This document shows positions 7,296-56,730 of a stretch of DNA of 64,000 bases, piece after piece (position 1 is the first letter of the stretch; each line of letters opens with the position of its first letter). This stretch comes from Maritalea mediterranea. Lineage in GTDB: Bacteria > Pseudomonadota > Alphaproteobacteria > Rhizobiales > Devosiaceae. The notes under the pieces are model-generated. The model was not told the origin of the DNA, searched no databases, and was given only the letters and a program-made list of their open reading frames with translations. Location of the stretch: the NCBI RefSeq assembly GCF_021568695.1, contig NZ_JAKGTI010000003.1:274043-338042 (forward strand), read 5' to 3'. The translations under genes were made by a program, and so were the position numbers.

Positions 7296-8306
7296 CTACG
7301 TCCCCATTTCCAGTACGATTTTACCAATATGATCCTGCGCATCCATCGCCTCATGGGCTTTGGGGGCGTCTTCCATCGGGAAGGTTTTCAGCTTTGGTTT
7401 TTTGATGGTGCCATTTTCGATGGCGGGCAGCACTTGCTCCATCAGATTGTGGCCGATCCGGGCTTTCACATCGTCGGGCTGCGCGCGCAAAGTGGAGCCG
7501 AACAGGGTCAGTCGTTTGGCCACAACCAGTCCCATGGTCACCGTGGCCTCGCGACCTGCTAGATTGGCGAGTTGGATGATGGTGCCATCGGGGGCGGCTG
7601 CGCGCAAATTGCGGTCGACGTAATCGCCGCCGATAAAATCGACAATGATATTAGCGCCTGTGCCGGTCTCTGCTTTGGTGCGCTCGACAAAATCTTCCGT
7701 CATATAATTGATGGTGACGTCGGCGCCCATCTCTTTGCAATAGCTGAGTTTCTCATCAGTGGACGCGGTGGTGAGCACCTTTGCGCCCGCCAATTTGGCC
7801 AGCTGGATGGCGGTGGCGCCAATGCCGCCCGAACCACCATGCACAAGCACCCAATCTTCCGCAGTAGGTTTGCCACGGTCAATCAAGGTTTGCTGTATGG
7901 TAAAAAAGGTTTCCGGAATGGTGGCGGCTTCAGCAAAGCTCCAGCCTTTTGGCTTTGGCAGCACCTGACCCCACGGCACGCTGACATATTCGGCATAGCC
8001 ACCCCCGTTGGTTAGCGCGATGACTTCATCGCCCACTTGCAGCGAGGTTGGCGTTTGATCCGTGGTGCGGCCAATTGCTTCGACAATACCAGAGACTTCA
8101 AGGCCAGGCAGCGGCGAGGCGCCGTCTGGCGCGGGATAGAGACCCTTTCGTTGCAAAATATCGGGCCGGTTGATACCGGCTGCTTTCACCTTGATCAGCA
8201 CTTGGCCCGGATAGGCATAGGGTTTGGTTGTTTGTGTAACGGCCAGCTCTTCCGGACCGCCGGGCGTTTTGATTTCAATAGCGCGCATTTTTTCTGACGA
8301 GCTCAT
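7296..8306 (-). CDS. NAD(P)H-quinone oxidoreductase, PIG3/QOR type
   Basis: A 336-residue zinc-independent medium-chain dehydrogenase. An N-terminal GroES-like domain is followed by a Rossmann domain with the quinone-reductase signature (VLVHGGSGGIGATAIQLAK). PIG3-type enzymes reduce quinones with NADPH; zinc ligands of true alcohol dehydrogenases are not apparent. The start at 8306 has AAGGAAATT upstream; the longer frame to 8357 reads into the divergent promoter region. It is transcribed divergently from the DUF1192 gene. Confidence 0.92.
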   Translation of the reverse strand: MSSSEKMRAIEIKTPGGPEELAVTQTTKPYAYPGQVLIKVKAAGINRPDILQRKGLYPAPDGASPLPGLEVSGIVEAIGRTTDQTPTSLQVGDEVIALTNGGGYAEYVSVPWGQVLPKPKGWSFAEAATIPETFFTIQQTLIDRGKPTAEDWVLVHGGSGGIGATAIQLAKLAGAKVLTTASTDEKLSYCKEMGADVTINYMTEDFVERTKAETGTGANIIVDFIGGDYVDRNLRAAAPDGTIIQLANLAGREATVTMGLVVAKRLTLFGSTLRAQPDDVKARIGHNLMEQVLPAIENGTIKKPKLKTFPMEDAPKAHEAMDAQDHIGKIVLEMGT

Positions 8307-8385
8307 AAGAATTTCCTTTTGATTTGACGCAATCAAAATTACGATTGTTAAGATCAACAGTTAGCAGGTTTAAGGAGAACGACAA

Positions 8386-8577
8386 ATGGGCGAAGATGTT
8401 TCACGATCCTCCAAGAAAGCCTCCATTCACGAGCTTGGTGCACCCTTGGATGATATTTCCATTGACGAGTTGCATGAGCGGATTGATGCGCTGAAAGCCG
8501 AGATCAAGCGGCTGGAAGCGGCAATTGAAGATAAAAAGAGTAGCAAGAGTGCCGCTGATTCAGTTTTTAAATTCTAA
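8386..8577 (+). CDS. DUF1192 small protein
   Basis: A 63-residue protein of the alphaproteobacterial DUF1192 family: a polar N terminus, a core ISIDELHERIDALKAEIKRL that forms a short coiled coil, and a basic tail. The function is unknown; the family is often found close to cell-cycle genes such as rcdA, as here. The ATG has AAGGAGAAC upstream. Confidence 0.88.
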   Translation: MGEDVSRSSKKASIHELGAPLDDISIDELHERIDALKAEIKRLEAAIEDKKSSKSAADSVFKF

Positions 8578-8722
8578 AATTCAACATTTTGTCTGAACCG
8601 GACGGGTTGGACAACCTGATGAAAGTGCGGGATTTTTGAGCGGTGCGGCGAGGCTTTGGCTGGGTCAATTTTGATTAAGCTTAAGCGGGAGCAAATGGGT
8701 AAGGTTAAAAAAATGACTCCGA
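8578..8722. other. Non-coding stretch before the small RNA promoter
   Basis: No credible coding frame. It holds the self-complementary TTAAGCTTAA near 8673 and a GANTC methylation-type site (GACTC, 8715-8719) four bases before the CtrA box. Confidence 0.5.
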
Positions 8723-8737
8723 TTAAGGTTGCATTAA
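8723..8737 (+). promoter_or_regulatory. CtrA-type box TTAA-N7-TTAA
   Basis: TTAA GGTTGCA TTAA matches the alphaproteobacterial CtrA consensus, with a further TTAAC at 8748. It sits where a -35-overlapping activator site would be for a transcript starting near 8758-8768. Confidence 0.65.
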
Positions 8738-8757
8738 ACATTTGCGGTTAACTTATT

Positions 8758-8853
8758 TTTATCCAGCATGGTCTGGATCTAGCAGAGCGGTTTTTACACT
8801 CTGTTTGACGCCTCCCTGTTAACTTTGAGAGCCGCATTGTCGGCTCTTTTTTC
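8758..8853 (+). ncRNA. Candidate small RNA, about 95 nt, with three hairpins and a terminator
   Basis: No open frame or ribosome binding site occurs here, yet there are three successive stem-loops: ATCCAG/CTGGAT (8761-8778), CAGAG/CTCTG (about 8782-8803) and AGAGCCG/CGGCTCT (8828-8847) followed by six T. A CtrA box lies about 25-35 bp upstream of the likely start. rcdA has its own -10 further on, so this unit looks independent. The exact 5' end and the function are inference; I do not recognise a named RNA family. Confidence 0.55.
8828..8852 (+). terminator. Intrinsic terminator of the candidate small RNA
   Basis: Seven perfect base pairs (AGAGCCG/CGGCTCT), a 6-nt loop and a T6 tract. No annotated gene ends nearby: the DUF1192 stop is 250 bp upstream. 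Confidence 0.85.
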
Positions 8854-8908
8854 TTTTTGGGCCTTTGAAAACCGTTCAAAGGTGGGGCATTGCCCGTATC
8901 TGGCCATG

Positions 8909-8937
8909 TTTGTTTGTTAAGGCTTTGCCATTATAAT
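8909..8937 (+). promoter_or_regulatory. Probable rcdA promoter
   Basis: A perfect -10 TATAAT (8932-8937) lies 44 bp before the rcdA start and is embedded in the palindrome CCATTATAATGG (8928-8939); the -35 is poor. A perfect 8-bp inverted repeat (CCTTTGAA, 5-nt spacer, TTCAAAGG, 8862-8882) lies just upstream. Confidence 0.5.
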
Positions 8938-8980
8938 GGGCGGCGACGCATGGATGGTGACGAGATAAGGGATTGTTGGC

Positions 8981-9487
8981 GTGAGCGAAAACAACAATGA
9001 GCAGGGCGCACATTCACTCGGCCCCAAATTGGTGGAGGCTGGTGGGTTTAACCAGCTTTATCGCGAGGGCATGGCGCTGGTGGAAGAGGTAGCGGCCTAT
9101 CTGGATGGCGAAGGTCGGGCGGAATCCAAAGCGCTGGGCCGTGATGCTGCATTGCTCTATGCCAATCAAAGCATGCAGCTCACCACACGTTTGATGCAGT
9201 TGGCCAGCTGGCTGTTGCTGCGCCGGGCGGTGAAAGAGGGTGAGATTTCCATGGACGATGCCCGCAATGAAGATCGGCGGGTGGAACTGAATGCTATGGC
9301 GCTGGATGAGGATCATCTGGATGTGGCATTATTGCCGGAAAGGATGCGCGATATGATCAGCCGCGCCAACGCCCTGCACAAACGGATATTGGCGCTGGAT
9401 GCTATGGAGCGGGAAGAAGCTACAATGCCGGTCGATAATCCGGTGGTGAATCAACTGGCTCGGTTGAAGGACGCTTTTCAGCGTTAG
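8981..9487 (+). CDS. rcdA: RcdA-like adaptor (regulator of CtrA degradation, DUF1465)
   Basis: A 168-residue all-helical protein of the DUF1465 family. In Caulobacter, RcdA is a ClpXP adaptor that works with CpdR and PopA to drive CtrA proteolysis at the G1-S transition. The conserved core is present: GGFNQLYREGMALVEEVAAY and the QSMQLTTRLMQLASWLLLRR helix. The start is GTG after AAGGG. A bidirectional terminator follows. Its CtrA-box neighbourhood and its product's target suggest a feedback loop. Confidence 0.9.
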   Translation: MSENNNEQGAHSLGPKLVEAGGFNQLYREGMALVEEVAAYLDGEGRAESKALGRDAALLYANQSMQLTTRLMQLASWLLLRRAVKEGEISMDDARNEDRRVELNAMALDEDHLDVALLPERMRDMISRANALHKRILALDAMEREEATMPVDNPVVNQLARLKDAFQR

Positions 9488-9522
9488 GCTATGGCCAGTT
9501 TCAAAGACAGGTCACCAAAACA

Positions 9523-9549
9523 AAAAACCCGGCGCAAGGCCGGGTTTTT
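9523..9549. terminator. Bidirectional terminator between rcdA and rpmE
   Basis: Perfect hairpin AAAAACCCGGC / GCCGGGTTTTT with a 5-nt loop, so both directions have a T-run. Confidence 0.92.
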
Positions 9550-9573
9550 GTTTCAAAATATCGATTTTGAGGC

Positions 9574-9795
9574 TTAGCCCAAAATGCCTTTGAATTTCTC
9601 TTTAAAGCGAGACACACGACCACCACGGTCCATCAACTGGCCTGAGCCACCTGTCCAAGCCGGATGGGTTTTTGGATCGATATCCAACTGCATTGTGTCG
9701 CCTTCAGAACCCCAGGTTGAGCGGGTCTGATATTCTGTGCCATCAGTCATGACCACTTTGATCATGTGATAATCAGGATGAAGATCTTTTTTCAT
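9574..9795 (-). CDS. rpmE: 50S ribosomal protein L31
   Basis: A 73-residue bL31 protein starting [19 protein letters not shown] and containing TRSTWG and HPAWTGG. There is no cysteine, so it is the zinc-independent (C-) form usual in alphaproteobacteria. The ATG at 9795 follows AAGGTAAG; an upstream in-frame extension to 9939 is rejected because it is unlike L31. It diverges from the ABC exporter gene. Confidence 0.97.
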
Positions 9796-29777: not shown

Positions 29778-29821
29778 CCGAAATTTGGGGTTTCGTTTTG
29801 CCTTTGTCTTCACTATATCTA

Positions 29822-29975
29822 ACCCGCTGCCCGGTTCGTGCCGGAAATAAGCATCCACGGGGCCTTACCGATCCTTAAGGGAGCTGTCACTGATTAGGCT
29901 CGTGGGCTTTTTCATCACGGCGCCCACCTACTATTGTAGGTTCCAGGATCTAAATTTCCGACGGCCAGGGCGGCA
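29822..29975 (+). ncRNA. ssrS: 6S RNA
   Basis: Located between zapA and the formyltetrahydrofolate cyclo-ligase gene, the usual place of 6S RNA. The ends can pair to close the molecule (CGCTGCCCGG at 29825 with CCAGGGCGGC at 29965), leaving a long rod with an open central part. A TATATC -10-like element at 29814-29819 fits a start near 29822. About 150 nt. 6S RNA binds the sigma70 holoenzyme and down-regulates growth-phase promoters. Ends are estimates. Confidence 0.8.
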
Positions 29976-29999
29976 ATTTCATTTTTGAGGGCGGGTAAG

Positions 30000-47416: not shown

Positions 47417-47433
47417 TTAAGCCCGCATTAACC
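47417..47433 (+). promoter_or_regulatory. CtrA-type box upstream of pal
   Basis: TTAA GCCCGCA TTAACC: exact TTAA-N7-TTAAC, 83 bp before the pal start. A new promoter here would explain why pal, cut off from tolB by the dioxygenase gene, is transcribed on its own. Confidence 0.65.
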
Positions 47434-55783: not shown

Positions 55784-55798
55784 TTAAGTGGGTTTTAA
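55784..55798 (+). promoter_or_regulatory. CtrA-type box upstream of the Omp gene
   Basis: TTAA GTGGGTT TTAA, 62 bp before the start at 55861, preceded by a further TTAA at 55771. A GANTC site (GAATC, about 55733) lies about 50 bp upstream. Confidence 0.6.
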
Positions 55799-56639: not shown

Positions 56640-56730
56640 AAAACCGTTGACGCGGCCTTCGATTGTCTCTATGCCCGTCAGTGGGCCACCCCTCCCCAAC
56701 GAGGGGCGCCTATCTGAAAGGGTAGATGAC
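56640..56730 (+). promoter_or_regulatory. Structured serC leader (serC-motif-like RNA)
   Basis: The 90 bp before serC contain a perfect stem CCCCTC / GAGGGG (56688-56706 region) and a small stem CTATC / GGTAG whose loop and right side include the ribosome binding site AAAGGG. This position and layout fit the alphaproteobacterial 'serC' RNA motif described upstream of serC. A ligand is not known; I have not compared it with the published consensus. Confidence 0.5.

Follow-up and report, generated by a model that had tools for sequence, protein, structure and literature searches.

A predicted small RNA gene of the RF02356/BjrC1505 family with a conserved CtrA-type promoter box beside rcdA

Besides its own Rfam family, the closest described counterparts of the element analysed here are cell-cycle and stress small RNAs (sRNAs) with a similar C-rich loop. 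CcnA of Caulobacter crescentus is encoded at the replication origin and acts on ctrA and gcrA; its promoter carries a predicted CtrA site, its loop is CCCC, and it is putatively activated by CtrA, while sequence searches have placed homologues in other alphaproteobacterial groups, with none clear in S. meliloti (PMC8959179). EcpR1 of Sinorhizobium meliloti, an sRNA of the stringent-response regulon whose loop is GC-rich and conserved, represses both gcrA and dnaA (PMC4414408), and EcpR1 and alpha-r45 have been named as unannotated sRNAs in Methylosinus sporium (PMC12403871). RcdA is an adaptor for CtrA proteolysis in Caulobacter (PMC8959179) and in S. meliloti (PMC4433202). In the latter species the rcdA promoter region is bound by CtrA, yet depleting CtrA caused no significant change in rcdA expression (PMC4433202), and start-site work has reported a CtrA motif upstream of an rcdA start (PMC3616915). 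Agrobacteria have several rcdA starts, and their predicted CtrA site is placed at a greater distance upstream than that of Caulobacter (PMC10469942). In the available text of a B. japonicum start-site paper the word CtrA is absent, and only RpoD- and RpoN-like motifs are given (PMC4842269). This data set and that of M. sporium could have revealed the RNA analysed here, but the available text of neither bears on it.

We analysed a 64-kb stretch of DNA (the window), in which a putative sRNA gene lies between a DUF1192 gene and rcdA. The features of the locus are as follows:

8386-8577: DUF1192 gene, the 5' neighbour of the sRNA stretch
8715-8719, plus strand: GACTC (GANTC, a CcrM-type methylation site), adjoining the CtrA box; from the sequence
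8723-8737, plus strand: CtrA-type box TTAAGGTTGCATTAA (TTAA-N7-TTAA); exact match
8750-8759, plus strand: approximate -10 region (AACTTATTTT); placed from spacing and relatives, limits approximate
8761-8852, plus strand: predicted sRNA of RF02356/BjrC1505 type, about 92 nt; Rfam match and transcript model R2
8761-8778, plus strand: stem-loop 1 (ATCCAG ... CTGGAT); fold, covariation in 5/6 pairs
8783-8803, plus strand: stem-loop 2 (CAGAG ... CTCTG); fold, covariation in 7/8 pairs
8805-8822, plus strand: core UUGACG-CCUCCC-UGUUAA, a small stem with a CCUCCC loop (anti-ribosome-binding-site-like); fold
8827-8852, plus strand: intrinsic terminator, 8-bp stem at 8827-8848 and T-run to 8852; covariation in 7/8 pairs
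8932-8937, plus strand: TATAAT, likely -10 of a separate rcdA promoter; perfect hexamer, similar block in the genus
8981-9487, plus strand: rcdA (PF07323/DUF1465); profile match, E 2.4e-50

The GANTC site, the perfect CtrA-type box, the hairpins ending in a terminator and the TATAAT before rcdA had all been pointed out in the first-pass annotation, and each was recovered. Exact TTAA-N7-TTAA occurred 3 times in the window against 0.47 expected, a count reached by 0/100 dinucleotide shuffles, and the box before the sRNA lies at about -38 to -24 relative to the predicted RNA start. The segment 8754-8855 folded with a minimum free energy of -28.3 kcal/mol (z -2.88), equalled by 4/200 shuffles. The predicted 5' end lies near 8761 (+/- a few nt) and the 3' end at the T-run. 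The same annotation had stated that the stretch holds no reading frame; five frames of 31-55 aa do touch 8715-8853, one of them (43 aa, minus strand, 8748-8879) spanning the whole RNA and the other four overlapping only part of it, and nothing favoured any of the five as coding. A promoter scan of 8300-9600 returned 0 promoters.

Searching the window with cmscan against Rfam 15 gave a match at 8715-8853 to RF02356 (BjrC1505, "alphaproteobacterial sRNA") at 51.3 bits against a gathering cut-off of 50, a margin of only 1.3 bits. The match covered the whole model (1-140/140; E 1e-6 for 64 kb), and because it is full-length and above the cut-off, the element belongs to a named family, contrary to the earlier view that it resembled none that could be named. 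The family was reportedly first described in Bradyrhizobium japonicum by Madhugiri et al. in 2012. Our transcript model R2, built from the transcript and a few nt before its start, matched 8748-8850 at 75.3 bits (E 1.5e-16), the window being among the 57 sequences from which R2 was built. BjrC1505 has the same core and stems as the window RNA. The first ~45 positions of its Rfam model fall on the inferred promoter with the CtrA-type box and seem to represent promoter DNA on which base pairs have been annotated, so RF02356 hits may be biased toward the box, and the family model may need trimming. By description, the window RNA resembles CcnA in being an sRNA with a predicted CtrA promoter site and a C-rich loop, and EcpR1 in being a Rhizobiales sRNA with a conserved GC-rich loop. 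The next-best Rfam family, mmgR/suhB (RF00519), shares the CCUCCCU motif before the terminator but scored only 21.9 bits, below its cut-off of 41.

RF02356 was detected at E <= 0.001 in 53/61 members of the relatives set, the window's own genome among them (42/61 over the cut-off), in 96/121 Rhizobiaceae-type genomes (66 over the cut-off), a label taken from rcdA similarity, and in 30/289 class-sample genomes, again counting the window's own (14 over the cut-off). None of the 14 control genomes, among which Caulobacter vibrioides is named, gave a match in any of the three surveys. A scan of genome contigs for the core returned at least 120 matches, and those listed included Bradyrhizobium, Mesorhizobium, Bosea, Roseibium, Sneathiella and Parvibaculum. 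R2 recovered 28/30 of the class genomes found by RF02356 and 49/289 overall, several of the class-sample sequences found having also served to build it. R2 matches in two class genomes (G102, G111), with an CGUUUCCUCCCUAAACU-like core and without a box, resembled mmgR on visual inspection and were excluded from the membership counts. Additionally, we read 25 of the 30 Rhizobiaceae rcdA upstream regions returned, covering 12 of the 25 genomes that lack an RF02356 match, and by eye these 25 regions carried a diverged RNA with the first stem, an CUCCCUGUU core and the terminator.

To the structure we applied covariation counts, using an alignment of 57 of the 83 listed sequences; of the 26 omitted, 13 were of Rhizobium type, 11 were divergent and 2, L224 and L243, were ordinary. 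RNAalifold on a MAFFT alignment missed the first two stems, so the resulting model (R1) was set aside, and the consensus structure was written by hand and then counted over the alignment. The results showed two-sided changes in 19/28 pairs (87 such cells), and on none of five measures did any of 500 shuffles score as high; conservation of the stems in relatives had been set as a check by the first-pass annotation. Pairing was kept in 90.7% of cells compared to 37-49% for slid structures, a control that favours our structure to some extent because it was drawn from the same 57 sequences. Two-sided changes occurred in 5/6 pairs of stem 1, in 7/8 pairs of stem 2 and in 7/8 pairs of the terminator stem. 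Stem 2 was paired in 80.6% of cells and included two poorly kept pairs, one unpaired in 37 sequences and the other in 19. The core stem around CCUCCC had two-sided changes in 0/6 pairs across the 57 sequences and is too conserved for covariation to prove it. Sequence comparison therefore supports stem 1, stem 2 and the terminator as conserved RNA structures.

The CtrA-type box was similarly conserved. With at most one mismatch it was present in the 50-nt promoter window of 78/85 non-redundant loci and was perfect in 44/85, the denominator including two false pattern matches (L144, L165); 7/85 loci had no box. Mononucleotide shuffles of the same windows contained it at rates of 5.2% (at most one mismatch) and 0.1% (perfect). 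Windows ~240 nt further upstream had a box in 0/82 cases, and windows 80-130 nt downstream of the core in 12/85, which we take for a second box nearer rcdA in Rhizobiaceae. This second box was perfect in 25/25 of the Rhizobiaceae regions read (loci among L257-L285); its distance to the rcdA match downstream was 167-184 nt in most of them and 269 nt in L268. A box at the sRNA was found in 21/25; in the other four regions (L262, L264, L270, L271), where the diverged RNA can be recognised by eye, no box within one mismatch was found at the RNA. The genome encodes CtrA (G000:C12:356133-356810), with 84% identity to a Caulobacter CtrA sequence. A conserved TTAA-N7-TTAA in promoter position together with a CtrA gene places the sRNA gene in the predicted CtrA regulon, with CtrA binding as a prediction. 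Among 30 filtered Devosiaceae loci, 16 had a GANTC within 14 nt 5' of the box (or 4 nt into it), where shuffling expects 1.6; the count was 0/47 in non-Devosiaceae loci. In nearly all 30 Devosiaceae loci, a block GGTTAAGAAA (GGTTAAAAAA in the window, 8703-8712) or a close variant stood ~20 nt before the box.

The neighbourhood was conserved as well. Counting one match per genome, the RNA lay upstream of rcdA on the same strand and within 2 kb in 49 of the 52 relatives-set genomes carrying both, with a median gap of 185 nt between the RNA match and the rcdA profile match. The same arrangement was seen in 63/66 Rhizobiaceae genomes with both, a count limited to the 66 of 96 matching genomes that exceeded the cut-off, and in 22/32 class-sample genomes having both, taken from 34 hand-picked genomes after other, weak or mmgR-like matches had been left out. 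In 16 genomes the RNA and rcdA were not linked; 15 of these had a box with at most one mismatch at the RNA (62-nt window), and 7/16 had one upstream of rcdA (420-nt window). The one genome without a box scored at the RNA, G255, had no scorable RNA locus by script, yet a one-mismatch box is visible there. Before rcdA itself, a pair TTTGTTAA ... TATA/TAGA recurred in 6 sequences from the genus, that of the window among them, and was not evident in two other-genus sequences printed alongside. Since a perfect TATAAT precedes rcdA, this gene need not use the CtrA box. These comparisons support a self-contained sRNA gene with its own predicted CtrA-type promoter, apart from the rcdA promoter. The first-pass annotation had assigned the box to a separate RNA of ~95 nt; the RNA is here put at ~92 nt, and the box, the covariation and the unlinked genomes agree with that assignment by comparison.

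We therefore favour, with a probability of roughly 0.78, a free-standing, CtrA-activated sRNA gene of RF02356 whose ~92-nt product acts in trans through its core, with rcdA on its own promoter. CtrA would bind the box at 8723-8737, overlapping the -35 region, and would activate transcription of an RNA starting near 8761. The RNA is predicted to fold into two variable stems, the invariant UUGACG-CCUCCC-UGUUAA core and the terminator, and to end near 8852. It would most likely act in trans on several mRNAs, its C-rich core pairing with their purine-rich ribosome-binding sites, and such pairing may lower translation of the targets in the CtrA-high part of the cell cycle. The rcdA gene would be read from its own promoter.

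The arrangement could also be that of a cis-acting leader or attenuator, in which a long rcdA mRNA would begin at the box under CtrA control, the terminator would gate read-through and the short RNA would be the stopped product. The placement upstream of rcdA on the same strand in 49/52 genomes fits such a leader, as does the S. meliloti start-site study, which assigns a CtrA motif upstream of rcdA to that gene (PMC3616915). However, the box stays with the RNA in the genomes where RNA and rcdA are separated, which argues against a leader; a promoter-like block of its own precedes rcdA here, and rcdA mRNA in S. meliloti was unchanged on CtrA depletion despite CtrA binding (PMC4433202). We consider the leader highly improbable. 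Less improbable, but still distinctly unlikely, is that the box belongs to an ordinary sigma-70 promoter or is read by a regulator other than CtrA, which would leave the RNA outside CtrA control. TTAA-rich promoters are not specific to CtrA, CtrA binding here is predicted from sequence, and Devosiaceae also carry the GGTTAAGAAA-like block and the GANTC; against this, the CtrA spacing is kept across orders, and a CtrA ChIP signal has been reported in the S. meliloti rcdA promoter region (PMC4433202), a signal that the second box nearer rcdA could itself explain. The similar C-rich loop might instead mark the RNA as an orthologue of EcpR1, CcnA or mmgR, and the mmgR/suhB model does align to 8789-8861, while R2 picks up the mmgR-like cores in G102 and G111. 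We find this hardly credible given the sub-threshold mmgR score and the loci concerned. EcpR1 lies downstream of divK-pleD (PMC4414408) and beside rpmG (PMC12403871), and the window RNA has DUF1192 and rcdA as neighbours; on these published loci we rejected treating EcpR1 and BjrC1505 as one family. Position likewise speaks against identity with CcnA, CcnA being at the Caulobacter origin (PMC8959179) and the window RNA beside rcdA, and RF02356 was found in 0/14 controls, Caulobacter vibrioides included.

A further alternative keeps the sRNA but makes rcdA its main target: the RNA would block the rcdA start, and less RcdA would protect CtrA, giving positive feedback. Raw pairing spoke for it, since at least 7 continuous Watson-Crick pairs with the RNA core were found in 48/200 distinct rcdA start regions compared to 11/527 others, with GAGGCGUUAA beside the AUG of rcdA in Bradyrhizobium-type genomes and AACAGGGA in Rhizobium-type genomes. 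After grouping into 70 RcdA clusters, however, the difference shrank to 8.0% for rcdA versus 3.0% for a shuffled core and 3.2% for other genes; with G-U pairs allowed (at least 8 pairs) the clustered values were 14.8%, 18.8% and 10.9%, respectively, and the pairing cases were confined to 9/70 clusters. RNAs swapped between genomes paired with rcdA about equally well, although the near-constant core gives this test little power; among 70 genes of the window, rcdA ranked 11. With strong raw counts that became much weaker once clustered and a rank unremarkable in the window, rcdA was rejected as a general target, and we judge it unlikely to be the main one.

For the free-standing sRNA, no target stood out in this genome among start regions or exact core complements. 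Against the 70 window genes, ctrA ranked 13 when its ATG was taken as the start and 7 for two in-frame starts further upstream, and gcrA ranked 18 from its ATG; for dnaA, whose start codon was not fixed, the ten candidate starts printed ranked from 19 to 67. Exact complements of the core (AGGGAGGCG) numbered 8 in the whole genome compared to 7 for the reversed pattern. One of the 8 is the RNA gene itself, and one of the other 7 precedes a convincing gene, which we take to encode a hisG-like protein. We infer transcription, its exact start, activation by CtrA, the pairing mode and all targets, and the regulatory loop from the sRNA to CtrA suggested by the first-pass annotation is hypothetical. 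In a wider and tentative proposal, RF02356 would supply the CtrA circuit with a widely conserved RNA arm that CtrA itself activates, and would be the equivalent of Caulobacter CcnA in Hyphomicrobiales and several further orders. Its place beside rcdA would be retained since both act on CtrA output, and in Bradyrhizobium- and Rhizobium-type genomes it would also block the rcdA start and so stabilise CtrA. We regard this proposal as a whole as rather unlikely.

In the literature searched, the name BjrC1505 appeared only in a table on Herbaspirillum, RF02356 was not mentioned, and nothing was found on CtrA control or rcdA linkage of the family; most subscription papers lie outside this search, so that absence there does not prove novelty. 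For RF02356, conservation of a CtrA-type promoter and of a position beside rcdA seems unreported. An RNA family that has been catalogued yet hardly studied would acquire both a regulator, CtrA, and a genomic partner, rcdA. A box serving the sRNA would also explain part of two puzzles, namely CtrA binding without a change of rcdA in S. meliloti and the distant CtrA site in agrobacteria, with the caution that the Rhizobiaceae regions read carry a box nearer rcdA in 25/25 and one at the RNA too in 21.

Several further elements were noted. In the class sample, G270 had three R2 matches, two of them on one contig just before rcdA, and G061 had two R2 matches, with no rcdA found. In the window, the two other exact TTAA-N7-TTAA boxes lie at 47417-47431 and 55784-55798, both on the plus strand. 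Matches on the same strand were also obtained for 6S RNA (RF00013) at 29821-29980 (62.6 bits, cut-off 46.4) and for the serC leader (RF00517) at 56679-56730 (70.1 bits, cut-off 35).
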